Assembly (NCBI GenBank): GCA_947359465.1
Contig: OX375878.1
Coordinates: 73,772,416-73,836,415 of the forward strand
Direction: 5' to 3'
DNA from: Metellina segmentata
Taxonomy: Eukaryota; Arthropoda; Arachnida; Araneae; Tetragnathidae
Length of the DNA stretch: 64,000 nt
The translations under genes and the position numbers were made by a program. Under the pieces are notes generated by a model. It had not been told where the DNA came from, ran no database searches, and worked only from the letters and a program-made list of their open reading frames with translations. This document shows positions 13,631-64,000 of this stretch, one piece after another (within the stretch, counting starts at the first letter, position 1; every line of letters begins with the position of its first letter).

Positions 13631-13656
13631 CCTGGTGTAGGAAAGCCTACACCAGG
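13631..13656 (-). promoter_or_regulatory. Perfect 3'-terminal hairpin of the LINE, containing the ORF2 stop codon
   Basis: CCTGGTGTAGG and CCTACACCAGG are perfect 11-bp complements around a 4-nt loop. On the minus strand the TAG stop (13647-13649) lies in the first arm. Only about 24 nt separate the stop from the CAA tail. LINE reverse transcriptases often recognise 3' stem-loops; that role here is inference. Confidence 0.75.
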
Positions 13657-17567: not shown

Positions 17568-17660
17568 GCCTTGGGTGACCCTACCAGGAGAAAATTCTCC
17601 CGACGTACTTCGCCCGTTCCGCCCAGGGGCACCCCCTCGCCACTATGAGGCCGACTGCAG

Positions 17661-20302: not shown

Positions 20303-20465
20303 GTACGAACAAGGATTGCATGCACAGTCAGCCGGTGAGTGAAAGTTCTAGCCCAACCGACGGAAATATTTTTCCTGCCATTTGAGAAGTACACCTGTGG
20401 CCGGGGGCCACACGCCGGGTGGTTTCTGTTTTCTGAAAACCCGGGTTCGTCTGCTGGCATTGACC

Positions 20466-23400
20466 ATGATGGATTCAGTGCAAATAGAGAAACTGAATGC
20501 GGGGAATTATTTCTCGTGGATCGACGACATCAAGGCCGTGCTGATGGAAAAGGGCTGCTACCAATTCGTTACAACGCCTACGAAGGATCTAAAGCTTGAG
20601 GAATCGGCTACACCTAAGGAAAAGAGGGATTTCGAGACCAAGCGAGATCGAGCCTACGCCACCTTGTACCTCAGCATCGACAAGGATTATCGTCTGCTAA
20701 TCTCTGGTGAAGACTATCCGTACACCGCCTGGATCAGCTTGAAAGACCACTTTAAACCGGACTCGAGGAGTCGCGTGATTGCACTCTTGGACGACTTCTT
20801 CGGAAGCAAGTACTGCGATGAGGAAATCGGAATTTACGGTGCGCGATTGAAACTTATAGTTTCTCAGCTAAAAGACGCCGGTCATCCACTGGAGGATCTA
20901 TATCAAGCTTTCCAACTGATCAGGTATCTACCAACTGAATATCAAGGTATTGTACAATCGTTATATCGTCTACCCAAAGAGGAATTCACTTTTAATAAGG
21001 TATTAAGTGAGTTAATATGTGAAGAAAGTAGAATTAAACAACTTAAAAAAGATAGTATCGGGATTGATAATTCTGCGTTTAAAGTTAAAGTAAACAAATT
21101 TAAGCGGAATATAAAATCGATAAGGGATACAAAATTAGGGCCATGTTTCAAATGCGGTAAATTAGGCCATATTAAGGCTAATTGTATGCAGAACCATAGG
21201 ACAAAGAGTCAACCCTGTACTTCGACTAACAATATAGTAGAAGCATTTATTAGTCAAAATGATGGGTACCATGACAAGTTAGCATGGGTTTTTGACTCTG
21301 CAGCGTCTACTCATTTCTGCAACAATAAAAGTTTATTTACGAAGTTTGAGCCTGTTTCTGACATGAACATGTCGTTGGCCGTAGGAGACTCAACATGTCC
21401 AGTTGAAGGAATTGGAACAGTAAGGATTTGTTTTAAAAGAAATGACCAAGAAAAATTAATTGATCTTAAAAATGTCATGTATTCACCAAATTTAAGAAGA
21501 AATCTTCTATCAGGAGCAGCTTTTGAAAAAGGGGGAGCAACTTTCATTGGAAGTAGGGGGAAAATTAAGGTTTATAATAAAAGTAATGAACTATTATTTT
21601 ATGCAGATCGGGTTAACGATCTGTATTATTGTAAACCAAGTTACCCTAACCACAATCCTGTATTTGCGATAGGTAGTGGGGAAAGAGACCCTGATACAAA
21701 CTATGATACAAACACTAGTCGTGAGTTGGAGCTTTGGCATCAAAAGTGCTGTCATATAAACTGTCAGTATATTATTAAAACCAGTCAAAAGAATGCAGTG
21801 AGCGGTTTACCAACATTTAAATCACAAAAGGTGGAATGTGAGGACTGTAAAGTCGCTAAAACTAAAAGAGTTTCGTATAAGCCAATAGCGCAAGTTAGGT
21901 CCCGTAAACCACTCGAACTGCTACATATGGATTTATGTGGTCCGCTGCCTACAGTATCCAAGGGCGGGCATAGATATTTCTTGTCTATAACAGACGATTT
22001 TTCACGCAAAGTTGTTGTATTTCCTTTAAAAACAAAGACTAATGTATATACACCGCAACAAAACGGTGTAAGTGAAAGGTTCAACTATACTGCTCTTGAC
22101 GCCGTAAAAACAATGTTGAAATCTAGCGGGTTATCGAATAGTTTCTGGTCTGAAGCTTTATTATGTTTCGTTTATACCTGGAATAGGATTTGTCATGGTA
22201 ATCAAGATAAAACCCCTTTTGAACTGTATTCGGGAAGGAAACCATCTGTAAAACATCTAAAAGTTTTCGGTTGCATAGCTTATGTGGGAACTCCGAGGCA
22301 GTTGCGTAGTAAGTTAAATATGAGAACTAAGAAAGGGATAATGATTGGGTATGCCATGCAAACCAGGGGTTATAGAATTTTCATTCCTGAAGACAATAAA
22401 GTCATAGAGACTATAAACGTTACTTTTTCTGAGTTAAATAATAAAAACCAAAGTACTATCGAAAACCAACATTGCTTTAATTTTATCGAAGTATCTGAAT
22501 CTGATTCGGAGCCGGAAGTAGATACACCCGAAAATGAATCTTCTGATTTGGACCTTAAAATTGAAGATTCGGGAGGTACCAAACGTAACAAGTCTCCTCT
22601 AAAGGATTCATTTAAGTCGTATTTAAAAGACCCAAGGGATTTGGGATGGATAAGATCAGCTTCTTTGAGAAAGGACGAATCGAGATACGATATTTATTAT
22701 GGATTTGAACATTCTAAAACCAGATTAAGATCGTATAACGATACTGAAAATTACTGTAGGGCCAATAATATAAAATATGATCGAGATTTTTTTGATTTCA
22801 GTGGTAAAAATCATTATTCAGGTCCAATCCCTAAGCCAGATTGTAGCAGTCAATCTGAGGCTTGTTTTGTTAATGTTAAAATCCCTTGTAATTTTAAAGA
22901 GGCTTTAAAATCACCCCAAAGAACTGAATGGCAGAAAGCCATGGTAGAAGAAATGGACATGATGCATAGCAGAAAGGTATGGACGTTAGTTCCCAAACCT
23001 GAAAGGGCAAGTGTCTTAGGGAACAGATGGGTTTACACTTTCAAAAAGGATGACAATGACAAAATTGTAAGATTTAAGTCGAGACTAGTTGCACAGGGGT
23101 ACAGGCAACTAAAAGGAGAATCTTATGATGAAGTTTTCAGTCCTGTCGTTAACTTCTCTGTTATTAGGATGTTTTTTGCAATTCTAGTTTGTTTATTAGG
23201 TTGGTATCATTGCCAATTGGACATAAAGTGTGCTTATTTATATGCTAATTTAAACGATAAAATTTTTATGCATCAACCACAAGGTTTTGTGGATTTAAAT
23301 TTACCAGATCATGTATGTTTATTAAATAAGGCAATTTATGGCTTGCATCAAAGTGGTAGGGAATGGTTTTTTTGAAATTCATAATGTTTTGGAAGAGATA

Positions 23401-24438
23401 AATTTTAAGAAATTGGAATGGGTCAATTGTGTTTACATATTTAATAATGAAGTTGTATTGCTACTGTATGTAGATGATATAATATTATTTGGGAGATCTA
23501 ATAAGGTAATCAATAGTGTAATTGAAAAACTAAAAGTAAAATTTGATTTAAAAATTTTGGGTAAAACTAAAAGGCTTTTAGGAATTGAATTTGAGGAACA
23601 AAAAGGAAAACTTTATATACATCAACATAGTTATATAAGCAAAGTTTGTGATATGTATAGAGAGTACAGATTTCCTCTTTCCTCACTTCCTATTGCAAAG
23701 GGCATAATTATGTCTAAATCAGACTGTCCAAGTACTGAACAAGAATTTTCTGAAATGTCTGTGTTACCTTATAGAAATATTATTGGTTGTCTTTCTTATA
23801 TTGCTGGTCGAACAAGACCTGATATATGTTTTGCTGTGAATATATTATCTCAGTTTCAGGAAAACCCAGGTTATAAGCATTGGAATTGTCTGTTAAGATT
23901 ACTTGGATATGTTCAAAACACAATACGTTATAAATTGGATCTTTCTAACATTACAAATTTTAATATTTCATGTTATTGTGATTCAGATTTCGCTTCTAAT
24001 AGAGACGATAGAGTGTCAATGGGTGGAATCATCTTGTTTATGGATTTAGTACCTATTTTTTGGAAAACCTTTAAACACAGATGTGTCTCATTATCCACTA
24101 TGGAGGCGGAATACATTTCATTAACAGAAGCAGCTAAGGAATTGATGTGGTTTATTCATATATTAGAAGACTGTAAAAATTTAAATATATTAAAATATGA
24201 AAACTACAAATATAAATTATTTTGTGATAATGAGGCTGCGATAAATTTTTCTAAATCTCCTATTGAAAATAGTAGGACCAAACACATAGATGTCAAATTT
24301 CATTTTTTAAGAAATCTTGTGTATGATAAAATATTTACAGTTGAACATATAAGAAGTAAACAAAACTTAGCTGACATTTTTACTAAAGCATTAACTAGAG
24401 AAAATTTAAATATATTCACATCAAGGATTTTTGTCTGA
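20466..24438 (+). pseudogene. Copia gag-pol polyprotein, disrupted by an integrase deletion and a frameshift
   Basis: ATG-ATG at 20466 opens a gag frame (MDSVQIEKLNAGNYFSWIDD) with a CCHC knuckle, CFKCGKLGHIKANC (from 21144). The protease motif DSAAS is at 21294; integrase HHCC-like residues run near 21735-21860. The first catalytic Asp (HMDLCGP) is at 21930 and the Glu of NGVSER at 22074. Only 48 residues separate them, so the segment with the second catalytic Asp is missing in frame. Reverse transcriptase starts in frame, then hits a stop after a T7 run (23367-23373). The remainder (YVDD at 23467, RNase H with CDSDFA, STMEAEY, DNEAAI and RTKHIDV) is in the +1 frame to the stop at 24438. Non-autonomous as written. 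Confidence 0.93.
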
Positions 24439-27854: not shown

Positions 27855-30800
27855 AAATTAACTACTAGGATATTAATTCAATGATTGTGACGCAAAGTTT
27901 AAATGATTAATTTGAGCTAGGAGTTGCATAATATTACTAGAACACTATGAAAGTACTCTCGTAGCTATGATAAAATTCCGCAACAGTCTGATTACGTAAC
28001 ACAATGAGAGAAATTTGGAAGACAGAAATTAACCCAGAAAGAAAATATGAGCCAACTTGAGAATAGATTTAGAGGTTAAAAAAATATTGAATTGCCTTTG
28101 AAAATGTGAATGAGATGTAATTGAAGTGTTCATTCTGAAGCTAATTGTGGTGACAAGTCAGAGGTCAGAACTTATCACCATGTACATATTAAAAATATGA
28201 ATTAATACCAGTAAGAGTACATTTGAAAAATGTAAACAAAATACTATTTTATATTTGTGACTAATTTAATTTGATTTGGAGGTAGAAAATATGCATATCA
28301 CTGCTTACATTCATCATAAATATATTTTAGAAATGTGAATAAGGACAATTCCATAAATCTATATTAGCATTTAAGAAACTTAAGCACAGATTTTATATGA
28401 GGGTCTGTTGGAATCAATAATTGATGAAGAGATGAAGCAATGAATAGGCATGTTTCTTTGTAGTTTTTATAGTTAAAAGCAATACATTTGATTCATAACT
28501 CTTACTTTTGTTATTTACTGCCTGGTTGAAGAGTATTCCTCTCAGTTCTGTAACCCATGCAGCTTTAACTTCAGGATTAGGGGCCTGAAGTAGAAAGGTG
28601 TCATTGAGCTTCCTTTTTCGAAACCATATTTCGAATTTGGTCGGACTATCTCCAATTTGTTCAGTCATTCCCATGTCAGTAGTCTAATAATAAAATAAAG
28701 GTTATAGTATTTATAAAAATTAAAAAGTTACGAAGTACAATATTCAAACATGAAAAACAATAGGAAAAAAACAATTTTACGAATTCAAATAATTGATTTC
28801 ACAAGAACTAAATAGGAATAAAGTTACTTTCCATTAGAAATCATTGGCACAAATTAATTTAGATAGTACATAATTAATTTGAGTGGTCAGAGTAGAAGAA
28901 AATGGATGAAACCAACTATGCACTAAAATGCTTTTAATTTATTTGATCATGCATGTAAAATACAAACATAACGATTTTAAATATTGGTTTATGTAAAACT
29001 ATTATTGTAGGCGGAAAAGTTTTTTCCCAAGATGATTTATCAGATAAAATAAAATGTAAGAGTTTTTTAGCATTGGATCAAGAGCATTTAACCCAAATTT
29101 ATAACATAAAGTCAGGAAAAAAGCATAAAATATAATTAGCAGATATTTGTTGTAAAATGCAATATTTTAATCAGGACGTGGTACAATAAGGTTAAAGCAT
29201 GTTTTAGTAGTTCAACGATTTATTATATATTACCTTAATGCTATGTTTGTATTGATACATTTCATAGCCTTTGCGCTGAGGATCTCTCCGAGCTTTGCTG
29301 AAGAGAATGAGACCTTCAAACAAGAAAACATGCCGCATACATTTTCTAGATCTACCTTGCCATACAATAAACTCATCTTGACGCAAAAGCCATCCCTGTT
29401 CTTTGACATTCACCTACGATAAAGATTTTATTTAGCAACAAAAAGGGGACACATTCACACATTTTATAATGGTCATTTAAATATGTGCAGTTATACTGAA
29501 GGTTATCATTACATAGTTAATTAAATTAGTATACAATATATTAGAGAGAAATATTAAAGATAATTAATTCATGTCGAGGTGTAAGATTAAAAGTAAAAAG
29601 TCTATGGATAAAATACTTTTTTTACATTTTTGAACATAAAAAAGAGGAAAAAAAAAACACACAATCGTAGATTTCAAAAACTTCTTAAACTAACATAATT
29701 ATTAAAACTTGAAGAGAAAATAAATATTAAGAACAAAAATAACAGAAAAAATTAAAAATTCATCTCAAAATTTTAAAAAATATGCTTTGCTTAAGAGATT
29801 TTTAAATTCATTTTATGTCTGATCCAAATGAGAAAAAAAAAAAATGAATATTAACTCTAAAAAATTTTATTACATTAAAATCTTCAAAAGTAGAACGTTT
29901 GCACCTTGAAAGCATATACATGGTTCCCACACCTTTATCTAAAAAATTTTCAAGGACTTGTCAAAACCAAAAAAATATTTTTCAAGGACCTGAAATTTTT
30001 TATAACGACCTGAGACAAGGCATACAAAAAAGTTGTCAGTTAAAAAGTAAAATGTAAGAAATATAAAAAAATACATAATTTGTTCAAACTATTGATAGTT
30101 AAAAAAAGAAAGGTTGCCATCAATTTTGGTTATAATTTGGATTTTTTCTTTCTTTTTATGCAAATTGGGCTTCTTGTCTCAATGTTAACTATCAGACTAC
30201 TTGCACACATTTCAATTTCGGTCGTGTGATAAAATATCGCACGATAAATTCTATTGAGAGCACGAAGAAGAGTATGGGAGCTTGCACACACAATTCGATC
30301 TACATGACACAATCTCCATTTTGCTGTCGTCCACTGCCTACAGCGGATGGCTGTCATGGTTTATTTTATTTAAGAAACAAAACAAATCAAAAGTTTTTAC
30401 TGGTGTAAGGGCTTTTTAATTCTCTAGTCTAAGTTTCTATCTTTGCAATCCTTAAAGACAGTAAAAATTTCAACGGATTTGAAATCTGCAGAAAATTTTA
30501 CAACAAAAAGATACTTTAAATGTGATTTTCTTAATTTTTTTTTTAATTGTAACTTTTATATTTTTGCAACAAGAATTTGGCTTTATTTCTTTGGATGCAT
30601 GCCAAGTTTTCAATTATGTCCTGACTACTAAACCTACGGTTTCCTAAGAAAGTTGTGCTGGTATTTAGTGGCCGTGATACGTCATGATGTGGTGGGCATA
30701 ACAAGGCAGCCGTCTTAACGAAGACCATAGGTGTCAACTTGGACAGAATACTGTGGAAAATGGACGATCTAGACGTAGCATTACTTGTATATCACGTAGT

Positions 30801-33800
30801 GTCAAAGAGCAAAACACCAGTCTCATTCAGAATGACGCACCAGCTGTGGAGGAAACTAGTCTGGACAAGTTCCAATGCAAGACGAAATTACACAATTATG
30901 TACTAGTTAAAAAAATCAAGTACTTTCAAGGACTTTTCACCAAGTTCCGTAATTTTTAAGGACTTTCAAGGGCCCCTAGTTAGGAAAAAATAATTCAAGG
31001 ACTTTTCAAGGACCGTGGGAACCCTGATATAGAAATTAAAGTGGTAATTTTAATGTCACCACTATGCTAATCAGAAACTTGAACAACTACACAATACTTT
31101 TAAAAGATTCATCTAAAGAGAAGACATACTAAATGTTTACTTACATCACAGTCTTTTAAAGCATCCATAGCTAGTAAATCGTTTCCATGCCTGAGTTGAA
31201 AACGAACCATTTCTTCAGCATCCTAAAATTTAAGCAAGGGAATTTCATTATCCAAGCATATATTTTTTAGTTTAATTATCAGTCAGTTTAAAAACACTAC
31301 CGTTTTATTGTACCTTTAATGCTTTGTGCTCTTTTTCTCTTTCAGGGCACTCTTTTAACAACTGTTTCAGAAGCAGAGCATATTTCCCCATCCTCTGCAC
31401 TGGCTTTAGAAGATAACTAGCTAAGTCCATCTTATCTTGAAGCTCAAGTTGTTTTTTCTGAAATATATTTATTGATTACACTAAAATTTTGCTAAGTAAT
31501 TAAGTAATACAAAAAACAGGAATCTTATAAGGTTAAAAGGAATGTTATTCTTAAAACACAGAATTCAGGAGTATTACTTACCCTGAAGAAAGCATTTCCA
31601 TATTCTGACATAAGAGCATCTGACTTTGGTTTGTTTTTATTATACAAAGCATACAGATAAAATTGGGGCCGCTGTAAATAAAAAGATATATATATCAAAT
31701 AAAGTTTTTATATTGTTCCTGCTTAACGCTACTAATTTTCATTAAAAGTATGTAACTTTTACAACAAAAATACAAATTACATATCTTAAAAAAGATTATA
31801 TTCACATCATTAAACTTTGACCATTAACACTTTTGGTCATTTGTTTCAATCATTATTTGTGAATTAATTATATGCCAACAAATATTTGGAAATAAAACTT
31901 ACAAAATCAAGGAAACATTGCCCCACTGTAAAAGGTGAACTCTCACAATGCTCAAGCTCAGTAAGAAAATACTGATTATGAAATTCATATGTTTTTTCAA
32001 TATTTCCAAAGACAACATTTCTCTGTCCCCTTAATGCTTGGGGAATATCTTCTCTAAGCAGTTCAGGAATATAATTCTAAAAATAAAAAGGAAAATAGAA
32101 TCACATATTTAACATGTTATTTCATTTAACTAAAAACCTCAATAACATGAAATCTAAAGTCTTATTACCGAAAAGCTAAAACCTTTCAAACAAGAATGCA
32201 GTTGAAAATTCTACTATAAAATTATGATAGTACCACCTTGAAATAAATTTTCCTTCGAATATTGTATATGCTTACTTAATAAAATTTATTTTGCACATTA
32301 TTTAAAACTGAAAGTAAAGTTTTTTTATAAAATATAGGTAATTAGGATAACGATCAATTTTGAAATGTCTAGAGTTAATTTCTTTTGCAAATCATGTTTA
32401 TAAAATTAAAGTAAAGCAAATTAAGTATTTGAAAGAAAAAAGGTCTAGAAATAATAAAACTTACTTCAATAATGTACTCCAATGACTTTACATAATCTCG
32501 CTCAGTTTGAATCAGTTCTTTCATAATTAGCATGAGAGTCCTAAATGCAATTAAATACATAATTAAAATTATGAAAGTACAAACTATTTCACAGGCATTA
32601 TAATTTTAATGGTGGAGCTGTAAATTCTACAATTGTCATTATTAAAGCCATTTTACAACATATTTTGTAATATGACATGATTCAGTTAGTTAATGTGCTT
32701 TTCAGCACTACAAATACTAATATTTGACAATATTACAAGATGGAAGAACCTTTCGAATGTCCAAGAATTCAGAAATCGTTCATTCTAAAAGTGGACAAGG
32801 CTATCTAATTCGATAATCTGTAGAACTATCCTTAATGGCACAGCTTGAAGTATGTCAAAGTATTAGGTTGTTTGGGTTTATATGGCTAATGGTTATATTT
32901 GGTCAAGCTGTACTAAAAATGACAGACAGTAACAAGTAAATGGACATACACATACAAGGAAAGTTTTTATAGACACAAAAGTGTGTGAGTAATACAACCT
33001 GAAATAACTCAAACCTGCAAATCCCTACAACTTGCAGGTTGGTAGCATAGCATGAAAACTAACTGAATCATGTCAAAGTAATCGATTAGGGTACAAAGTA
33101 CTTAGAAAATACATAATACTTCAATCTCATGATTTATTGAAAAAATATAGTGTAACTAACTTTGACATTTTTTTTATGGCAATAGTTTAAAATATGGCAT
33201 TATTTTATTCAAAAATTATTATGTTTTATGATAACACCTGACCCTACATTATTCAACTATGCACCAAAATCAAATATAAATAAAAAATTGGTACAGTCTC
33301 AGTCTACGTTTATAGCTGTAGCAATGGTCTTGGGGCTTTTTTTTTTCGGTGCACTTCTAGTAGCGAGTTATGGCAGGTTAAGGCAATCCATCTGTATTAC
33401 AGTAACTGCAATTTACATGGCAACCTCAACAAGCAAAAAAAAATTTAATTTAAAAATTAAAAAAAAAATTTAATTTAAAAATTTGTTAAATTGTTGCTTG
33501 ATTTCATTGGTTCATTTGAAATAATTAATTCCTTGACGACTTTAAGTATCGCGTCAAAAAAAGCGCCAAGGCTGTTTCCACCAATTGTAGACTGAAGCTT
33601 TACCTAAACATTCTACAAAAATGTAATAGCAAGCAAAAAATATCAATTTAAAGCAACAACAACAAAAAAAAAAAAAACATGATTAGTTACCCAAATTTCA
33701 AGTACTATACCACAAGTTGTATCGTCAGTCTCATGGCCATGAGACGCTCTGGCCGCCAAAAACCACAGTGGCGGTTTTCACGGTGTTAGAAAATTACGAC

Positions 33801-36800
33801 GCCAGTGTTCTTTATTCGAACTACAGTTTCGGAGAATACGATTTATTTGATTCTCAAAAGTACTTGTAATTGTGCATCTCTAAACAGGACAAATGATAAT
33901 AGTTGCTGTTTTTATCAAAATTTTAAAAGTTCCATGATTTATTGTGAAATTTTCCCTGAGAATACCAGAGTTAAAAAGTTCTCTGAGAATTCCCTGTTCT
34001 ATTACCACCCTGCATAATGCTTTTATTACTGGAATTATAACAAAATTAAAGTCATAAACAGTGAAAAATACAAATTTTGCACACATGTGCATATACTATA
34101 ATATACACCGGATGGTCATAAATTAAGTAGCCCTCAGCGACAGACATTTTCAATTAATCAGAATAAAACTTAAGGTTTCAAGATATGAGTTTGAGAATCA
34201 TCTAAGTAACAAGAATTTAGCTTTCACGGATACAGTTAACATATTTAAAAAAAGCAGCACATACTTTATATTATTGGAATGAGATTGGCAAAGAAAAATT
34301 GAAAATGGTGTACAACTTTACCTTTATCTCCAAAACCAACTACAAAAACACCTTTATTTTCTCTTTTGTCATTCACTCATGATTGACAGTGCAGTTTTCA
34401 GAGTAAAAGGCAAAATTTTAGTGTCATTTTTTGGTCTTTCGCTGTGCTAAGCACATTGAGATATAAAAAGTCAGTGTTGCTATTCGAAATTTGGTAACTG
34501 TATCCATAAGAACTTCTTGTCATTTACAACTCTTGGGCACATCCGTTGAAAATTGCAGTCACTAGCAGCTCCGAAATAGGGAGTATTTACTTCATGACCA
34601 CCCGGTATAATCCATATAATACTATCTATAATATACTACAATGCTATTTTTTATTCCAATATTTAATTTTCTACCTTTCGAAAAAGAAAGTTGGTCTGTG
34701 AAAAATTATCCCATATACTTGCTTGTAATAACTCTAAGGGAATGTTACAAATTAATTGCAATGACTCACTTCTTCGATTTAGCCTCTGCATCATTACTGA
34801 TTTCATTTGAAGAGCCTGTATCTGGAGTATCAACAGGAGTAATGGGTGGTAGCAGATGTGTATTAACAGGAACAGGTCCACGTGAACAGTCAGAGCGTGG
34901 TTGAGGAAGTGATTTCTTTGAAAGTTTGTCTGTATTTGGAGTTTCAGATATTTCAGATCTAGAACAAAAAGATTTTTTTTAAACAAAAAACAAACAAGTA
35001 CTTTAAATAATAATTTTTTTTTAAATCACTGAGTTTTAATAAGTTTTAGGAGAAATTTAAAAATAAATCCCATCAATACACTTTTAGCTACAAAAATGTA
35101 TTCACTTTAGTAAAAAGTTTTCAAGATAATCCAAAGAAAACAAATACAATTAAATGAAATCTTTATTTTTACACATTTGGTATTAAATTTATATATGGTG
35201 TGTAAAATTAATGTTCATAAAAGAACTCAAATTTCTCTTGTTTGGTTTTGCTTGGTAAAATTCAATTACAAATCAAGAAATACTAACAACATTTTATTAT
35301 GAGCATGTGATTAAACCTGATGGAACTTACCAAAAACATGATTAAGTAATTTTTGTACTGTGAAAACATGCACAATTTCAATACTTATTCACAATTACTA
35401 TTCTTACTTTTTTATTATGCAGTAATTGCTATTAAAGACTTTTAGAAATGAATTTGAGCATGACGGGAAAGTCATGTGTATTCAGAGACTACTCATTTCA
35501 TGAACACTTTCTAGAAGAAACATAACATTGTCATGCGTAGGATTTATTTTATTAAAAAAATTGAGAATTAGGAATATTAAGCATGGAATGATTTTTTCGA
35601 TAGAGAAGCTTTTAAATAATTTTTCAATTCATAAATACAGATCTTCTGTGAACCGAGTTTTGTAATTTAGCAAAACTACAAATACTATACTACTATGTTT
35701 AAAAATAAATTTGCAATAAAATTGTTTTAAATGTCAGTTTTACAACTCAATAAGACCCTAACTTGAATGTAAAACTTTCATGAGAGGAAGGATTTAAGAA
35801 ATTTTCTAAAAACTAGAAATAGGTCCCAAACAGAGGAACATCCGTTTTAGATAACAGTTTGTTCTGATAAATTAAAGGTTATAACATGATGGGTAAAGTT
35901 CATATTTTTTTTTAAGTAATAGAAATCATCACCGGGTTAGAGAAAAGTTGAAAAATAAGGTAATAATAGACATCCATACCTATTTGTATCATTGTCTTTT
36001 TGACAATCTCGCAGCCTTTCAATGCGTAATAATGCAGTTTGTTCTCGAACTTCAGCCTTTACCTTTTCAAGGGCATCATCTCTCATTTGCCACAACTGGC
36101 ATCGTCTAGTAAGCTTCTTGGCAGATTTAGATTCAGATCCATGTGTTGAGTAATATCCACTCCTTCGAGTTGCATTCATAATATCCTGAAAACCCACATT
36201 CGAATATTTGTATATTGTACAACTCTTTCAATGTTTTTTTGTAGCACACATAAAGCATCATTCAAGAGAACTCTGAATATTACATATTAGTTTTTTAACT
36301 TAACCATTTGGTTCATAAAGAATTCTCCAAATTAAATTACATTTATTTTTTATGAGTAAAAAACATCAACTAGTTGAACATTGAAATGGAACAGATTTCT
36401 GGGATTCACGTTCACCCTGATTATGCATGAGGGAAAATGGTGGTAAGACCAGTAGAGAAAAATTTAGCATAAAAGATGTGTTCTATTGAAGAATGTATTC
36501 TGTTGATATTGGAAGATTTAAACAAAAGAGATGTTTGATAAATATAATTCTTTTTAATGTAATTTGATGATGCAATGTCATCCAAATTACATTTAAAACT
36601 ATTTATGATATTGGTAATTCCAACATTTTGTTTCCTTTAAAATATAGTCAATTCAGGATGTCACCATTAAATGGATTTTTTAGTTTTAAGACAGAAATAC
36701 AGCATTTAGAATGTTCCATCTTTTAGTCTAAAAAACACGTGTCCAGAAAATATTACACTTTTTATACTCAGAGAAATATGTTTATAAGCCAAGAACCTCA

Positions 36801-39800
36801 AAAAATATGAAGACCAAGAGGGATTGGACAAAAACATTCATTAGACTATTGAAAGAATTTTACAATACTCACTTTGCTGACCCACACGATATTTCTATAG
36901 AATAGCAAAGAATCAATCATAGACTTCATAGAAAAATTGGAAAGAAGTAACCATGGGGATAACTGTTTTTCTTATATGTACTACCAACAGGTGAGGCAGA
37001 TGATAAAGCTAGCCTCGCCATCTGAAGGTACAATTCAAATGTAACAACAAATGACTACAGCTGCGCGATAAGAGGTGCATGATCACAGCAGCATGATCTG
37101 AGTAGCTTGTTCAACTTCCAATCCAACGAGTTTCAGTAAATACATGAACGTTATCGTTGTCGATATCTTATCCTTAGGACTTTATTATTCTGTAGTTCAA
37201 GTTTCTATCTATGCGATTGTTAAGAAAAAAATATTTCAAAAGAAAATTTCAATGGATTTGAAATCTGCGGAAAATTTTACACCAAATCAATTTCTTAGAT
37301 GCGGTTTTCTTTAAAAAAAATATTTTTCAACTGTAACTTTATATTTTTGCAATACGAATTTGGCCGTATTTGGATGAAGATATTCATGACAAACAAAAAA
37401 AAGGACTGTTTATTTCATTTTATAGAAAAGATATAACTTGAAAGGAGTATTTTGTTTCCTTAATGCCATTAAAACACAATGAAAATTTCACCCTATTCTT
37501 CGCTCTAAAGAAATTTATTGTGATGCTACAGTTACACGGAAATAGTCATTTCATTCGTCACATTGGAATCACACCTTAAGATTACTTAACAGAAATGCAA
37601 TGTTGCATTTCCAATTGTACTGTCTAACATAATTTAAATGACAAAATCAAAGGTGCGACCATTATGCAATATAAATATATCTTAAATTGCTGATCCCATT
37701 TTTGAGGCATTTGTATAGGTTTGAGTTTCTCTTAGGGAATATTGCTGAAATTCAAAGTTTTCTATGATCCATACCTACCCTCACCACATTTTAAATAGAT
37801 TGATTAATTAATTAATTTTTGCACTGGTGAGTAACAAACTTATAAATGTTTGATTTTTGTGAATTAGTATTGGTTTACAGATATTAAACTGTTTGGGTGA
37901 AATACTTGTGCAAAAATGCAGACTAGTACTGTTCTGATCATTCACTGTGTTACTGTAGGTATTCAATACTAAACTTTATAACCTAAATTTTTAGCCATTT
38001 GGATGTAATTCGTCATATACATACAGACACAAAGAATGACGGATACATAACGAAGAAGGCATTGATTGCCACTTTAAAATAGCAGAAAAAATAGAAATTA
38101 GATGAAAATTTTCGATGTACAAACCAACTTAACTTCATTTTTATGAATATAGAAAGTCATATCCGTGACTTGAGAAATAATCATATGAAACATCATATAC
38201 GTCGTCAAGGTTAAAACTGGTGATTAATCATTCAGGTTGCCCTATGAATTAACATATGCATGACCTTCAGATTTATAAAGAAGGTTAAAAACTCACTTTA
38301 CTACTTGTAGAAGATGTGGAAGATGATGATGATGAGTGACCACTTCTGTGAGTGCCACGCAAGTCTAAGAGAGTTTTAGATATTGATGCAATGGGTCCTT
38401 GAGATGTTAAATCCTCAGTGATCAGTCCATGATTTAGAAAACTGTCTTCTTTATCTTGCATAAATGTCTCTAAGTGATATGGCTCCTTTGTAGAAGGATA
38501 ATAACTACTTGGAAAAGCTGTATAAGATCCTATGGGAGATCCATAGCGCTGTGATGCAGATACACCCATGGGGCCTCCAGTTGAGCGGCGTCGCTGATGG
38601 CTCGAGAAACCAGGGTAGGGAGTACTTGCACCAACAGGTAACCATGTGTTCATTGGCTGAGAATGAGACCGCAAAGTACGGGGAGTTTGAGAGGCATCCT
38701 CTGCTTCCCAGAAAGGTCCTCTAAGAGAGTCTATTTCAATTTGTTGCTTAACCTTTTGGAGTGTAGTTTGGCGAGTTTTAATCAGATCGACTGTTTCTTC
38801 ACAACGCAGTTTGACAACCTGATATTAGAAAGAGAAATTATTTAAATTAGGCTAATTTAACTATGATACAGATTTAAACAATATTGATTCAAAAGCTAAA
38901 CAATGAAACAACTGAGCACTAACATAAAGAAAGAATAGTAGATTTGTACAATTATTATACAGTTGTATATATACGGTACTTGGACTGACAATTTTTGCTT
39001 TGCTACTACACTATATTTTGTCTGAACAAAAATTTTAATTTTGTTCTAAAGTTTATAAAAAGGTTAGCATTTTAAAACATGAAACAAATTTTAAATGAAT
39101 TAATAGTTGAAAAATATTAATTAATTTATTTTCTATTTACATAACATGTTAACAATGCAGCATGCAAAAAATGCATGAATAATTCTGAGAGAAAAAATTA
39201 AAGGAAATTAAAATGTGTTTACTGATAAGTATGTTTAGCAAATAAAAAATACTTTCTAAAAAGTAATTGATTCTTTCCATGGAGCAAATTACTTAATCAA
39301 GCTCATATTGGGTTAAAAAGAAAGGAGCATCTTCATTTGCAAATTCCATAGGAAAAATTAGAAACAAAAACACAGTGTCATACATAAACACAAATAATTC
39401 TTTCTAAAAGTTCTCTCAATAAAAATAGCTCAAACTCATTAAGTTCAATTAGTATTATTTTCTTACTTTCTCCCAACAGTTTGAACATGACTTAACAGTA
39501 ATAAAACAACATACATTAAAAAAAAATTTTGTACATGAACAGATAAATGATACATACCTTGCACTGTTCAAGGAGTTTTTCATTTCCTAATTTAGCTGCT
39601 AAATCCAGCATTTCAGTAAATGTATCTTCTGGAACTTGCAGATGATTATCTGCATAATCCTGCAGACACCTAATTTGCCGCAAAACCCCATCTGGACTTT
39701 CAGTGTTAGTGATGCCCAAGTGTGAGACGAATCTCATTGCATCTAGAGCCCACTCGTAAGACTAAAAAAAAAGTGGTATTAAGTAACTATTGGAAAGCAG

Positions 39801-42074
39801 TAATCTTAGGAAAAGGAAAACAAAAAATTCTTCTTAAAGCAGTTTTTGAAAGGTGTAATTGAAGTCATCAAGAAATGAAATTGATTTACTTGCAACATAA
39901 CATTCACATATTGATACACTGTATTGTTACGTATTTGAAATTTCATATAAAAGAAAATCTTTTTTAAATGGAAAATTCTGAATACTGGTCAGTATTATTT
40001 TTTCCTTTTCATTTTTTTAACGGATTGTAAATGGGAAGTGTTCTGTTTAATTTGAGTCACAGAATCTATATTTGTTTTTTGCTTTCTTCTTTCATTTTTA
40101 TCATTTATGCACTTATTTTGTTTATAAATGTTTAATTTGGTTTTGTTGGAATCGGTGAAGTTTAGCATTAAGACTTTTTAATTTGGTTTGGTTGAAATCA
40201 GTGAGGATGATTTTTAAAAGCATAACTTTGTCACGGGCAATGCCGTGTGGGTAATGCTAGTAATTAATATAACCCACTATGTTAGTATCCATCTTGACAT
40301 TACATTTCGACTTTCATGAAATCACTAGAACCAACCCAATTTTAAGGAAACAAAATATTTCATTTAACAGTAATATCTTAGTTTATATTGGACAATAAGT
40401 AAAACTTTTGTTGATGTAAAATCAGTTTATTATAGTTTAAAAATACTAAGCAGTTGTTCAAAGCATGAAAATACAGCAAATTTAAACATAACACATTGAA
40501 AGCTCAACTCAGGCTGCACAGGGGTGTTTCAATGCCATTATTTTGAGTAATTAAAAAATTATTTTGATAAAACACAGGAATATGGGAATTGCTAAATTGG
40601 CAACTCAAATTTTCACCAATAAATGTCTAGCTGCTGGGCTTCTTTGGCTTTTATGGTGCAAGGGCCATATTTGATCGTGCTGTGCCCAATATAAAACAGA
40701 TAACGTCAAGTAATGGGCATACACATTTAAGGAAAGTTTTACTGCAACGGAAGAGATACATTCAGGACCTACAATACCTATAATTTGCAGGTTACTAGAG
40801 CAGTGGGTAAACTCACTGAGGTACAGCTACAGTCTATGTTTATGAGCGGTGGAAACGGCATTGGCGATATTTTTGACAAACTTCTAAAGTCGCCAAAGTA
40901 AGAATTATTTCAAAACGTGTTTTCTTTCAAAAATAGTTTTCTTCTTACAACAGAAAATGAAAGCTTGAAAACACAGTTGAGAACGTTTTAAAAAGTATAC
41001 TATATTTTTTAAACTTTTGCAAAAAACAGTAAGTTTAAAAGCATTTCAGAACACATTTGTGAACCAGCAGAAAAAGTAAACTGCGAATGTTGGGTAAGAA
41101 TACCCGGAAACTTATCAATTACACGAAATACAGTAGTCTGTTTGAAAAGAAAAAGATTTTAAAAGAAAAAAAAGCAAGAAATAAAACAACCTGATACATC
41201 AGAACTGTACAGAGAAAAAAAATTATTAAACAAGAATGTTCCACAAATGGCAAAAAACAATAGATGTCAGAACTCTGCTGTGAAAAAAAAAATTATAATA
41301 AAATAAAAATTCCACAACCATTGTTATCAAAGAAAAAATTAAAAGGACCAATGCAATCAAAGGATACTTTAAAATCAAAATAACCAATGGAAGCAAAGAA
41401 AAAATTTCAAACGAACCAATGAAATCAAACAATTTTTAACCGATTTTGGAAGAACTTTCCAGAATATTCAAAATGAAAATTGAAAGTTACCATTTGCCGA
41501 GGTTTCCATGATAACCACAATAATTGTAAAGACATATGGGTTGCCTTAATCTACTGTAACTCACTACTAGAAGTGCACCAAAAAAATTGCCATGACCGTT
41601 GCCACCGCTCATAAATGTAGAGTGTAGCTGTACCCTCACTGAACCATAGTGGCTATACCAAAATGGCAATTTGGATAGGTTGCCATGTTAGTACCTATCC
41701 AATGCTTCCATATGCATGGAAGTAGAAAACCTACAACAGGTTATAATTTTCCAAAAGCATTGCCAACTGGAAATGATGCTGTGTTCTTGAGTCTAATCTG
41801 AAAATTCTATAATGGCATTACTTGTGAACCAAATTACACTTACCTTATCCATCAATTGATAGCATTTTGCAGTATCTTCGATTCTTTCCCGAGTTCCCTC
41901 CAGTCTTTCAGAAAATGATCCCAGATGTTGGCGCAGTGATGTCGCCAAATCATGAACTCCCCCTCCTTCATCAACTGCTTCTGAGGGATTTTCTTCATAG
42001 ATTTTAGGGAGACAAGATTCAGGGCTGAAAGTTGACACTTCCTCAAGAAGATCATTACCCTTTTCAATTTGTCT
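25632..42074 (-). CDS. PLEKHG4: Puratrophin-1-like Rho guanine-nucleotide exchange factor (PLEKHG4/PLEKHG4B/ARHGEF40 family), 16 exons, 5' end not certain
   Basis: DH-PH exchange factor expected to activate Rho-family GTPases at the cell cortex or cytoskeleton. Exons from the 5' end: 41844-42074, 39558-39761, 38297-38818, 35980-36185, 34770-34958, 32465-32540, 31903-32076, 31582-31671, 31314-31457, 31145-31222, 29234-29413, 28506-28683, 27267-27383, 26799-27005, 25822-25994 and 25632-25679. Every junction keeps phase and the total is about 938 codons plus stop. The order is spectrin-like helices (exons 1-2), Ser/Pro-rich linker (3-5), DH (6-10, with ELIQTERDYVKSLEYIIE and LLKPVQRMGKYALLL), PH (11-12) and a Ser-rich tail. 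MVRFQLRHGNDLLAMDA and KEQGWLLRQDEFIV are near-diagnostic of the puratrophin branch. The CRAL-TRIO-like N-terminus of the vertebrate protein was not located and may lie on unrecognised exons above 42 kb. The last exon is the least certain. Confidence 0.9.
25822..25994 (-). CDS. PLEKHG4: RhoGEF exon: C-terminal tail
   Basis: 173 nt from acceptor AATTTGTAG to donor GAG|GTAAAG, phase 1 in and 0 out. It encodes a Ser/Glu-rich tail ending SEVPCISKLEQSLEE. No family motif; supported by phase and splice signals. Confidence 0.75.
26799..27005 (-). CDS. PLEKHG4: RhoGEF exon: Ser-rich C-terminal region
   Basis: 207 nt, phase 1 in and out: APRFRNSIAVSPCDVRNNRN, then ISVTSSSSSGSSQSSFSFYG, the Ser-rich tail seen after the PH domain in this family. 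Confidence 0.85.
27267..27383 (-). CDS. PLEKHG4: RhoGEF exon: post-PH segment
   Basis: 117 nt, phase 1 in and out: NFLAELSSMGVGNKPCLDIK and SEDQISDRSI, like the MGIGNQPFMDVKP segment after the human PLEKHG4 PH domain. The donor G|GTTATT is a weak GT site. Confidence 0.84.
27824..27850. repeat. TA microsatellite
   Basis: Thirteen TA units in a RhoGEF intron. Confidence 0.95.
28506..28683 (-). CDS. PLEKHG4: RhoGEF exon: second half of PH domain
   Basis: 178 nt, phase 0 in and 1 out: TTDMGMTEQIGDSPTKFEIW, then FLLQAPNPEVKAAWVTELRG with the conserved C-terminal PH Trp. The donor A|GTAAGA precedes out-of-frame read-through. Confidence 0.92.
29234..29413 (-). CDS. PLEKHG4: RhoGEF exon: first half of PH domain
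   Basis: Sixty codons: VNVKEQGWLLRQDEFIVWQG and RHVFLFEGLILFSKARR, then the YEMYQYKHSIK strand. Acceptor TTATCGTAG, donor AAG|GTAATA. Confidence 0.92.
29919..31026. mobile_element. hAT-like element in the RhoGEF DH/PH intron
   Basis: The left end CATGGTTCCCACACCTT and the right end (reverse complement CAGGGTTCCCACGGTCCTT) are inverted. Both are followed by several TTCAAGGACTT units, a pattern of known hAT termini. A clear 8-bp duplication was not found. No transposase frame. A segment at 30390-30602 recurs at 37165-37370. Confidence 0.65.
31145..31222 (-). CDS. PLEKHG4: RhoGEF exon: end of DH
   Basis: Twenty-six codons, AEEMVRFQLRHGNDLLAMDA and the DH-PH junction DCD|GTAAGT. This block is nearly invariant in the puratrophin branch. 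Confidence 0.93.
31314..31457 (-). CDS. PLEKHG4: RhoGEF exon: DH domain conserved region 3 (catalytic helix)
   Basis: Forty-eight codons carrying MDLASYLLKPVQRMGKYALL, the hallmark DH helix that contacts the GTPase. Donor AAG|GTACAA. Confidence 0.94.
31582..31671 (-). CDS. PLEKHG4: RhoGEF exon: DH domain
   Basis: Thirty codons: RPQFYLYALYNKNKP and ALMSEYGNAFFR, matching the YALYSKNKP...NAFF block of vertebrate puratrophins. The acceptor is TTTACAG and the donor AGG|GTAAGT. Confidence 0.92.
31903..32076 (-). CDS. PLEKHG4: RhoGEF exon: DH domain
   Basis: Fifty-eight codons in phase 0: NYIPELLREDIPQALRGQRN, then a segment matching FGNIEKTYEFHNQYFLTELE of the DH core. Ends CFLDF|GTAAGT. Confidence 0.92.
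32465..32540 (-). CDS. PLEKHG4: RhoGEF exon: DH domain conserved region 1
   Basis: 76 nt encoding KTLMLIMKELIQTERDYVKS and then LEYIIE, the first DH helix with its characteristic ELI-TERDYV motif. The GTAAGT donor leaves phase 0. Confidence 0.92.
32870..33430 (+). repeat. Dispersed repeat, two modules
   Basis: Module one (32870-33060) contains CTGTACTAAAAATGACAGAC and CCTACAACTTGCAGGTTGGT. Module two (33276-33430) contains CTACGTTTAT and GGTGCACTTCTAGTAGCGAG. Both recur in the same order at 40640-40880. Unclassified; it lies in a RhoGEF intron. Confidence 0.5.
34105..34607. mobile_element. Mariner-like MITE
   Basis: Inverted ends read ACCGGATGGTCATAAATTAA and, from the right, ACCGGGTGGTCATGAAGTAA, beside TA dinucleotides. 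They resemble Tc1/mariner termini. About 500 bp, no transposase frame, inside a RhoGEF intron. Confidence 0.7.
34770..34958 (-). CDS. PLEKHG4: RhoGEF exon: Pro/Ser-rich linker before DH
   Basis: 189 nt, phase 2 in and out, with a GTGAGT donor. The frame set by the preceding exon reads SEISETPNTDKLSKKSLPQP and then a Pro/Thr-rich stretch. The longer open frame on this strand here is not the phase-consistent one. Confidence 0.8.
35980..36185 (-). CDS. PLEKHG4: RhoGEF exon: basic/helical linker
   Basis: 206 nt, phase 0 in and 2 out, acceptor GGTTTTCAG, donor G|GTATGG. It encodes DIMNATRRSGYYSTHG and a charged helix with RRCQLWQMRDDALEKVKAEV. Confidence 0.84.
37165..37370 (+). repeat. Second copy of a segment of the 29919-31026 element
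   Basis: Shares AAGTTTCTATCT, GGATTTGAAATCTGC and TAACTTTATATTTTTGCAA-type strings with 30390-30602 in the same order. Diverged, no termini seen. Confidence 0.55.
38297..38818 (-). CDS. PLEKHG4: RhoGEF exon: end of helical region and Ser/Pro-rich linker
   Basis: At 174 codons this is the longest exon, phase 0 in and out. It opens with VVKLRCEETVDLIKTRQTTL (helical), then turns low-complexity with basic, Ser, Gly and Pro residues, and ends in SSSSSTSSTSSK before GTGAGT. Probably a disordered linker. Confidence 0.85.
39558..39761 (-). CDS. PLEKHG4: RhoGEF exon: spectrin-like segment
   Basis: Sixty-eight codons in phase 0, from acceptor TTTTTTTAG to donor AAG|GTATGT. The product starts SYEWALDAMRFVSHLG and ends LAAKLGNEKLLEQCK; it is helical and fits the repeat preceding the DH region in this family. 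Confidence 0.87.
40000..40260 (+). mobile_element. Helitron 3' end (5' part not found)
   Basis: A hairpin CACGG...CCGTG (40232-40247) lies about a dozen bases before a terminal CTAG at 40257-40260, which is followed by T. This is the canonical Helitron 3' end. No TCTCTACT start was found, so it is probably truncated; the left limit is arbitrary. Confidence 0.6.
40640..41655. mobile_element. Inverted-repeat element in a RhoGEF intron
   Basis: GTACAGCTACAGTCTATG with a following GAGCGGTGG (from 40842) is matched in reverse complement near 41595-41645 (GTACAGCTACACTCTAC, GAGCGGTGGCAACGG). Bases next to both ends read CACTGAG or CAGTGAGG. The modules also occur at 32870-33430. Family uncertain, possibly hAT-like. 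Confidence 0.45.
41844..42074 (-). CDS. PLEKHG4: RhoGEF exon: spectrin-like segment
   Basis: The acceptor CTCAACAG and donor AAG|GTAAGT enclose 77 codons in phase 0. The product runs RQIEKGNDLLEE, then an acidic loop and a helical stretch, LRQHLGSFSERLEGTRERI, typical of a spectrin-type coiled helix. Confidence 0.85.
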
Positions 42075-42990
42075 CTGTTGAGAAAATATTGAATGTCACA
42101 GGAATATTGATTTACACAATAAATAAAATGATGATTTTATTTTTAAAAAAGTTTATAAAACATGTATACAAATTAATGATGGAACCAAATAAAAACTAAT
42201 TTATTGCAAAAAAGCAGTTTGATAATACGTTCTTAACTCTTAAAAAGAGAATTTGGGATTGACATTCATTAAAATTATATAAACTTAAAAATACATTAAT
42301 AATTGGTCAGAGGCAAGAACTCGATACAACATTTTTCACCAATTTGGTGAGAGACTGATGCCATGTTCTTTAATTTTATCAATATATTTTCATTCCCACG
42401 TTTTTACCAATAAGGGCAATAAATGCTTGAAAACATTCAGCTGAGAAAATAATTCTATTCTAGATGGAAGCAACCAAAAATTCCATGTTTTGAAAATGTT
42501 CAATTCAACAATACCGAATTTTCGCACAATTTTATACACATGTAAAACAATACCATTTAATTTCTTTGACGAATTTACAAAATTTGAGAAAAAAGCTCTA
42601 TTTGGATCACAAAGAGAAATATTTTCGTCTCACACCAATATTTTCAAATATCCCTGGCAAAAGAAATGTCTTGTCTTGTAATGGTGAATTTTGCTCCAAC
42701 GTGATGTTATTTCATCACGCTTGATTAATAATTAATAAAACCTACGAAAAAAAAAACTCGTTTTGTGACCACTTTTTAATTCACCAATGTTTTTTACTAT
42801 CAAACATATTCACCAAAATATCATTTCCCTGAATTTTGTTTAAATTGTTTACAGGGGTGAAAAAAATGTCGAACTTAATGAATTAAAAACAACTCCACTA
42901 ACTAAATTGATAATTACATTTGCAACGATTGTATCCATTGTATTTAGTGAACCAAAACAAAATAATGATAAATTGTTTTCTATAGAGAAT

Positions 42991-62760: not shown

Positions 62761-64000
62761 TTACGTATCTGGTTCATAAGTTGCAAAAAGCAAGTTATCC
62801 TGTAAACAAGTGAACGTCGAATATTTTTTTAACAGCTCATGTCCTATAGTATAAGAGCGTGAAACGGGTATGAAAGGGACTTTATACATTTTCAGTAAAT
62901 TATTACAAATATTTTCAACTTTGAAACAATCTAAATACCAACCCGTGACACGGGAAGAAAGAGTGGATATCTCCTTAACAGCACTGTACACAAGTTTCCT
63001 TTTGGACCCTGGTTTTAAAAAATTCTCATTGGAAAACGTAACGCATTTTTTAAAAATATCACGAGTAGTAGAAGCTCTTTCTCCAATTTTCATTGACGGA
63101 AACTTTGTCCCGGGTAATTCGACACACAGTAGTAAAAATTTCCCAGTTCGAGTGTACGTAATGTATGAAAGCTTAATGCTTTTGGCAACAATCGAACTGG
63201 TAGAACAACATGCAGATAAAGTTGCAGGCCGGAAGGCGAAATTCCAGGAGTTGGATATTAGTTTGTTCAAAATGTCCCACGACGAAGAGCTAATGTCAGT
63301 AACAGTTTCGTAGCTGTTCTCTGCAGAAGAACAAAATACTTGCCAACGCAATTTCGAATTTTCAGACACTGTTAACCATACTTTAGGTGAAATGTTCAAA
63401 GTGCATTCCCACGCCATAGAAGATAAAGGAACCACAGCATTCCACGTTTGGGAACAAGTTTGCAGGTATACATTCCAAAGGCATTGAATGACATTCCGGT
63501 TGGAATTCCATAAAACTGGCGCAGTAGACGAAATGAATTCCCATACACCAGGAGAAATTTCGCATGTCAGAAGCCACATTTTTTGACATAAATCTTTAAA
63601 GGCACACCAAGCGTGTGGCGAATTATCACATATTAATTTCCATATTCTTATAGACATTTGCTCCAAAAACGTCCACAGTTCATCTGTGACATCACATTGA
63701 GTTTTCCATAACTTGGAAACAGCACTTTTTAAATATTTCCACAAATTTGGAACAATATTCTCATGAAGTTCAGAACATGCAAGAGACGAATTTTGTTGAA
63801 CAAATGTGATAGCACAGTAAACAAATGAGGAAATTATACCCATCAAACTATCATATACATGAGTTGCAGAATGTTCACATTTAAAATAATCTATAATTTT
63901 GCGTAACACAGTATAAAAAAAATTGTAGGTACTATCATCATCACCAGAACCAGAACCAGAAAAATATTTGCTGAAAACGGTGTAAAACTTTCTTACTGAC
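62761..64000 (-). CDS. Unrecognised protein with 16 uninterrupted 11-residue Trp repeats (5' end beyond the window)
   Basis: One open frame runs in from the right edge and stops at TAA (62761-62763): about 412 codons without an intron. It opens with a Gly-Ser/Asp-rich patch and a hydrophobic stretch (GIISSFVYCAITFV). Counting from the codon at 63909 as residue 1, Trp follows at 57, 68, 79, 90, 101, 112, 123, 134, 145, 156, 167, 178, 189, 211 and 222, with Tyr at 200. That is sixteen consecutive 11-residue units. Typical units are EISPGVW, NISPKVW and STAPVLW: a hydrophobic residue five before the Trp, often Ser-Pro three to four before, and Leu/Val/Ile just before. The last 160 residues are non-repetitive, Cys/Lys/Ser-rich and end FATYEPDT. 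I know no family with this pattern. An 11-residue period suits an 11/3 amphipathic or hendecad helix with an aromatic stripe, but that role is inference. Confidence 0.75.
   Translation of the reverse strand, partial: SVRKFYTVFSKYFSGSGSGDDDSTYNFFYTVLRKIIDYFKCEHSATHVYDSLMGIISSFVYCAITFVQQNSSLACSELHENIVPNLWKYLKSAVSKLWKTQCDVTDELWTFLEQMSIRIWKLICDNSPHAWCAFKDLCQKMWLLTCEISPGVWEFISSTAPVLWNSNRNVIQCLWNVYLQTCSQTWNAVVPLSSMAWECTLNISPKVWLTVSENSKLRWQVFCSSAENSYETVTDISSSSWDILNKLISNSWNFAFRPATLSACCSTSSIVAKSIKLSYITYTRTGKFLLLCVELPGTKFPSMKIGERASTTRDIFKKCVTFSNENFLKPGSKRKLVYSAVKEISTLSSRVTGWYLDCFKVENICNNLLKMYKVPFIPVSRSYTIGHELLKKYSTFTCLQDNLLFATYEPDT

Follow-up and report, generated by a model that had tools for sequence, protein, structure and literature searches.

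A tryptophan-marked array of sixteen 11-residue units in a conserved spider gene: a candidate helical scaffold resembling phage tape measure proteins in design

An 11-residue period is a known feature of hendecad coiled coils. Units of this length marked by Trp have also been described in phage tape measure proteins by Belcaid et al. There, Trp or Phe act as the marker of 11-residue units (PMC3271669), and the arrangement with W/F every 11 residues, seven in a row (pattern 1), was recorded for 191 of 5608 tape measure records, pattern matches overall amounting to nearly 5% of that set (PMC3271669). For phage TP901-1, 29 units are counted, each 11 or 18 residues long (PMC5099701). Furthermore, the 11-mer lipid helices tabulated in PMC5889406 have hydrophobic moments of 0.257-0.48 and aromatic fractions of 0.2-10%, with no helix of the table above 11%. 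Here we describe Trp-marked 11-mers in a spider gene, a design which in these sources is otherwise described for bacterial virus tails.

The window, i.e. the whole stretch of 64,000 nucleotides of Metellina segmentata DNA that was analysed, contains a minus-strand frame (62761-63999) which is open to the window edge and comprises the last 412 codons and the stop of a gene, the 5' part of which lies beyond the window. Neighbouring sequence supplied the full gene: the frame runs uninterrupted over 1156 codons from stop to stop on the 129-Mb contig C6 (locus L002 177-3647, minus strand) of the 1.67-Gb genome assembly. Met at L002 3530, chosen by fit to relatives, was taken as the predicted start, and the predicted protein (P0001) has about 1117 aa. 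The frame belongs to a genuine gene, in support of the sequence-only reading; besides its open length, it is kept in eight relatives. Protein search of the own genome gave a copy number of one and no second copy, the three other genome matches (E 0.03 to 0.7; C13 and C1) being minisatellite DNA. It should be added that these minisatellite arrays (C13:1836938-1840342, L005; C1:114521393-114525084, L006 and L007) have long open frames on both strands and are a source of spurious repeat-protein matches.

The gene is situated on C6 of the spider genome and, as far as ten neighbouring frames show, away from any cluster of phage or prophage tail genes: Pfam analysis of these ten revealed no phage-type tail gene, the frames having RhoGEF/PH domains, retrotransposon domains or nothing credible. 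Elsewhere in the window, exons of a RhoGEF gene, whose predicted product looks like Trio/Kalirin, occupy positions 28414-42095 of the minus strand, with an SOS1_NGEF_PH match at 28414-28680 and a RhoGEF match at 32375-32602, the latter slightly below its cut-off. Positions 13647-17642 (minus) carry an unbroken LINE-type frame of 1331 codons with endonuclease, reverse transcriptase and RNase H, and positions 20352-24438 (plus) a copia-type retrotransposon with two overlapping frames (gag, integrase, RVT_2), broken near 23375. The Spidroin_N profile gave 31 matches in the genome, all above the curated cut-off, and matched none of 14 control genomes. Spidroin N-terminal domains are clustered at C8:33893522-34394795 (L014-L017 and others), where four share the same E-value at a spacing of ~57 kb, which suggests that a silk gene was recently copied in tandem.

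Of 7990 candidates scored against the full protein, nine reached E<=10, eight of them with E below 1e-200. These eight relatives were 38-43% identical to the query and covered 94-99% of it in seven cases and 59% in one. Six are named, from Nephila pilipes, Araneus ventricosus, Trichonephila inaurata, T. clavata, T. clavipes and Caerostris darwini, all orb-weavers and all labelled 'uncharacterized' or 'hypothetical'. The two further relatives are encoded on contigs of only 4.7 and 5.1 kb, so that in them, too, the frame fits one short stretch. The single addition from the profile search, P0011 (E 2), was excluded from the relatives, as was P0010 (E 0.6). The T. clavipes protein (P0009, 939 aa) is without units 1-6 of the array, perhaps owing to a gene-model gap, and was excluded from full-length counts; these refer to eight rows, i.e. 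seven relatives and the window's own protein, or to nine rows with P0009 added. In the gene tree, rooted at the midpoint only, Nephila and Trichonephila were grouped and the window's protein was placed with the two rows from the short contigs. The in-window query of 412 aa gave no match at E<=1 among 1301 candidates, the relatives (939-1198 aa) being outside the length range of that search. Arachnids are perhaps sparsely covered by the protein database, which bears on how far the family reaches. The locus tags of the relatives were not mentioned in the results of our literature search; searching for a spider protein with 11-residue Trp amphipathic repeats or a spider perilipin yielded only unrelated papers, and none among the matches listed joined a tape measure protein with a spider or spidroin. 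The protein may nevertheless have been mentioned in print. In sum, this is a large gene without annotated domain that is kept across all spiders found in this analysis.

Conservation differs between the regions of the protein. N-terminal residues 1-220 are 57-64% identical to relatives. Residues about 640-778, the window part of which lies at 63772..63999 (minus), are variable in length and 17-24% identical. They are followed by the 16-unit Trp array (63244..63771, minus; residues 779-954), with 40-51% identity, and by a C-terminal stretch (62764..63243, minus; residues 955-1114) with 30-35% identity and no Trp period. Beyond the window, residues 480-640 of P0001 make up a second conserved block (45-53% identity) with conserved prolines 504, 537 and 548, which are 33 and 11 apart; this block is possibly the helix on which the Trp edge of the array packs.

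No credible match to the protein was found in Pfam (own protein at E<=10, nine members at E<=1), in NCBIfam or among PDB sequences. Several candidates were set aside as weak, namely Pfam CTD8 (0.082) and Antimicrobial_7 (0.14; 0.25 in a second scan), three Pfam families matched by one member each (E 0.095 to 0.41), NCBIfam SecE (E 0.085, one member) and, in the PDB, the tape measure 6v8i (E 0.53) and the entry 8rd2 (E 0.36). PDB FtbJ (E 0.008) was discarded with a bias term of 31 bits exceeding its score of 17, and a designed bundle (0.023), Gp14 (0.13) and two weaker PDB entries were likewise set aside. TMEM214, considered as a lead, was dropped.

The array covers 63244-63771, slightly more than the 63250-63741 given by the sequence-only reading, whose description of exact 11-residue spacing without insertions or deletions was borne out. 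Out of 16 Trp in the in-window frame, 15 fall in one phase of 11, and the best of 20,000 residue shuffles reached 8; thirteen consecutive W at a spacing of 11 are followed by Y, W and W. The same reading had DNA copies strongly diverged under selection on the period and on Trp, which agrees with our data. Tandem Repeats Finder detected no DNA repeat at the array, and inter-unit DNA identity without the Trp codon averaged 33%, vs 28% with codons shuffled within units. At the protein level, Trp occupied 136 of 138 register cells in nine rows and its spacing was conserved wherever the array was present, the two exceptions being Tyr in unit 14 of the window's species (Trp in eight relatives) and Leu in unit 15 of Araneus. 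Invariant Trp columns numbered 14 out of 16 in the array vs none of the 20 Trp-bearing columns elsewhere (Fisher p 3e-8).

Repeat number, which the sequence-only reading proposed to compare among relatives, does not vary: in all eight full-length rows the array has exactly 16 x 11 = 176 residues without gaps. Leaving Trp aside, different units of one protein are merely 9-11% identical, whereas the corresponding unit is 36-91% identical across species (28 row pairs, mean over 16 units). The units are therefore old and individually fixed and, with the length of 176 residues found in all full-length rows, have stayed constant in number in these spiders. From a signal at lag 7 (p 0.0095 before correction for the 8 lags compared) we claim no higher-order repeat of units.

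The proposed 11/3-helix geometry gained support from the hydrophobicity profile, which follows a 98-degree period in a single phase across the array, as expected of an amphipathic alpha-helix. This third harmonic of the 11-mer dominates even with Trp masked (power 16.6; 5000 shuffles average 0.85 and none is as high), and there is a slight rise of the fifth harmonic, which corresponds to a beta-like period (p 0.03). For the protein as a whole the peak is at 98.2 degrees, with a power of 20.8 (at most 11.3 in 500 shuffles), and for the segment preceding the array it is at 98.4-100.6 degrees in all eight rows (power 8.9-22.8). A clear helix period is missing from the first 220 residues (power 4.8-7.5, with peaks that do not consistently fall near 98 degrees), and residues 641-778 and 955-1114 follow the exact 11-residue register weakly; the case for a helix is therefore strongest in the middle of the protein and in the array. 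Along this putative helix Trp would form the stripe that had been suggested, given its hold on one register. The prolines that had been taken to favour short helices or another fold are indeed frequent, and six of them stand at identical columns in 8/8 full-length rows. The register, however, is unbroken, and five of the six are at register 8. They look like predicted kinks or helix starts and, being fixed on the same lattice, such kinks would keep the register.

The conserved side of the array differs from its hydrophobic side. Six of the eight full-length rows were used here, so that near-identical rows would count for less. With Trp left out, their hydrophobic centre was found at -79 degrees from Trp, and their conservation was centred at +14 degrees (p 0.0001). 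Of the 44 invariant array columns, 29 belong to three registers, namely 11 (14 columns), 8 (eight columns) and 4 (seven columns), registers 4 and 8 being within 65 degrees of Trp. The fixed residues at registers 4 and 8 are Cys, Lys, Pro, Ser and others, specific per unit, with the reservation that conservation at these registers is partly due to prolines and cysteines, which are maybe kept for other reasons. Generic burial would favour the hydrophobic centre, and specific residues line the Trp edge instead, from which we infer a docking edge; the pattern suggests a specific docking surface beside a generic hydrophobic face, ~90 degrees apart.

On these grounds we favour, at about an even chance, the reading of the protein as a long helical scaffold that docks through its Trp edge, its helical, docking and scaffolding roles being deduced from sequence. 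The protein would be mostly helical, with a conserved N-terminal region, long amphipathic helices and then the 16-unit array. The latter may be a single helix of 176 residues that stays in register throughout (a straight one would measure about 26 nm), with a kink or a fresh start at each of the six fixed prolines. Its broad, generically hydrophobic face would be buried in a helix bundle or lie on a surface, and the Trp edge together with the residues of registers 4 and 8 would offer sequence-specific docking for a second helix, be it the protein's own, that of another copy or that of a partner protein. Such a stretched-out scaffold, with aromatic anchors at regular intervals, would be akin to the Trp-marked helices of phage tape measures, probably with an independent origin. 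Several observations count against it: the six prolines of each array speak against a single uninterrupted helix, the N-terminus is without clear helix period, the register is weak in the array flanks, and the charge layout of the array resembles that of class A lipid-binding helices.

The closest match in design raises the question of descent. The claim of the sequence-only reading that Trp in each 11-mer marks no known family does not stand, since phage tape measures have published Trp/Phe 11-mers (PMC3271669, PMC5099701), and the array shows their pattern 1. Its suggestion of HMM searches turned out in two ways: Pfam and NCBIfam gave nothing credible, and PHROGs tape measure families did match. 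The tail length tape measure family phrog_1272 was matched at E<=1 by eight of nine members, with E 1.2e-15 for the whole of P0001, our scramble controls covering the array alone and residues 700-1020. Moreover, tblastn with the whole protein (E<=0.1) gave matches in 127 phage records out of 50,697, and tape measure annotation was present in 10 of the 15 phage matches listed. These results are in favour of a phage tape measure gene having entered a spider ancestor, as is the score of native residues 700-1020 with phrog_1272 (5.1e-9), 4 to 11 bits above all three class-preserving scrambles (3e-7, 9e-6 and 1.1e-7; 39-43% identical to native; five sequences in this test). The other controls point elsewhere. 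Ten sequences were used for the array alone (native, three column shuffles, three with only Trp kept, one unit-order shuffle and two full shuffles): the native array scored 3.1e-6 with phrog_1272 and was surpassed by all three column shuffles (6.8e-10, 1.2e-8 and 5.9e-7), the unit-order shuffle giving 6e-7. With Trp kept and the rest scrambled, 0/3 sequences matched any tape measure family, and neither did the two full scrambles; the full scramble of residues 700-1020 had no PHROGs match. For phrog_4200, two of three scrambles of residues 700-1020 (1.7e-7, 6.2e-6 and 1.4e-7) exceeded the native stretch (8.3e-7). As register-preserving scrambles match comparably, the phrog match reflects the periodic design and gives no clear sign of ancestry; the phrog_1272 score is chiefly, but not entirely, pattern, with a small residue-specific excess. 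Furthermore, tblastn identity was about 18-23%, and conserved N-terminal patterns, with 41 matches in viral contigs and 57 in prokaryote genomes, led to no confirmed relative. We consider descent from a phage gene very unlikely; the simplest reading of the sequence comparisons is that spider array and tape measures probably converged. Profile matches to tape measure families can arise from period alone, which should serve as a warning.

The main rival of the docking scaffold is a lipid-surface coat. Like those of apolipoprotein A-I, the synucleins and the perilipins, the 11-mer helices would then cover lipid droplets, organelle membranes or lipoprotein particles; Trp would sit at the interface, and the prolines would curve the helix round a particle. 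Class A denotes a type of lipid-binding helix with an acidic centre of the polar face and basic flanks, and the array has such charges: acidic residues are nearer to the polar-face centre than basic ones in 8/8 rows, which are related (p<0.05 in 5/8). The helix period across the middle and the array and the basic N-terminal and middle parts of the protein also suit a coat, and so does the array moment of 0.32-0.36, a whole-array mean that falls inside the 0.257-0.48 tabulated, as single-helix means, in PMC5889406, where seven prolines are seen to kink apolipoprotein A-I too. On the other hand, the aromatic fraction of the array, 12.5%, exceeds that of every helix in the same table (PMC5889406), its net charge is 0 to -6 in the eight full-length rows, and sequence-specific conservation is on the Trp edge rather than at the hydrophobic centre. 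The protein has a perilipin-type 11-mer amphipathic repeat, but membership in the perilipins was rejected: the Perilipin profile PF03036 matched neither the own protein (Pfam E<=10) nor the nine members (E<=1), and the genome's perilipin-like exon pieces lie elsewhere and lack significant similarity to the array family (best E 0.024 at 1.5 bits). These pieces gave six profile matches at E<=10, the best 0.0013 and none over the curated cut-off; five are on C4, at 42.44, 112.43 and 113.75 Mb (L008-L012), and are read as putative perilipin genes. We regard a lipid coat as rather less likely than the docking scaffold. We think it unlikely, in turn, that the protein is a helical solenoid or bundle in which the 11-mer is a packing unit only, Trp being the core and having no binding role. 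Trp is the most conserved residue, as protein cores conserve it, and the unit number is fixed; yet the hydrophobic centre without Trp lies ~90 degrees away and is less conserved, and two-helix solenoid units need more than 11 residues. A chance frame or decayed sequence has next to no probability and was rejected by the shuffles, which put at most 8 rather than 15 Trp in phase, and by the eight relatives with Trp spacing held wherever the array is present.

By analogy with phage tails, the docking scaffold could also be an independently evolved ruler of spiders, its helix having an invariable length (16 units, ~26 nm) and its Trp marks being occupied by a regularly spaced partner. We see this as an improbable extension; if true, the unit number would set the size of a spider-specific assembly, on the principle of the phage tail tape measure. 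With unit number and all 16 positions fixed, the Trp edge can be altered unit by unit, and the array makes the role of spaced aromatics on an 11/3 helix (partner anchor, length or lipid surface) testable outside phages.

Among known systems, phage tape measures have the same exact 11-residue Trp spacing as the spider array, and the register hydrophobicity of one protein with the phage-tail Pfam accession PF10145 (P0010) correlates with that of the array (0.83 over 11 positions, 0.78 without Trp). The array gene is nuclear, however, whereas tape measure genes belong to phages; its unit number is constant in the eight full-length rows and variable in tape measures, and their 11-11-18 mix of units is not present in it. 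Unlike tape measures, the spider protein has a conserved N-terminal region without phage match and six fixed prolines, and the similarity of the sequences is mostly explained by the register pattern. Hendecad coiled coils have the 11-residue period in common with the array, a comparison made by period, and differ from it in that the array carries Trp in every unit at the edge of a face. Proline kinks like those suggested by the fixed prolines are described for apolipoprotein A-I in PMC5889406. Perilipins, synucleins and apolipoprotein A-I share amphipathic 11/3 helices of 11-mers with the spider array, which differs from all three in being much more aromatic and in having one edge specifically conserved.
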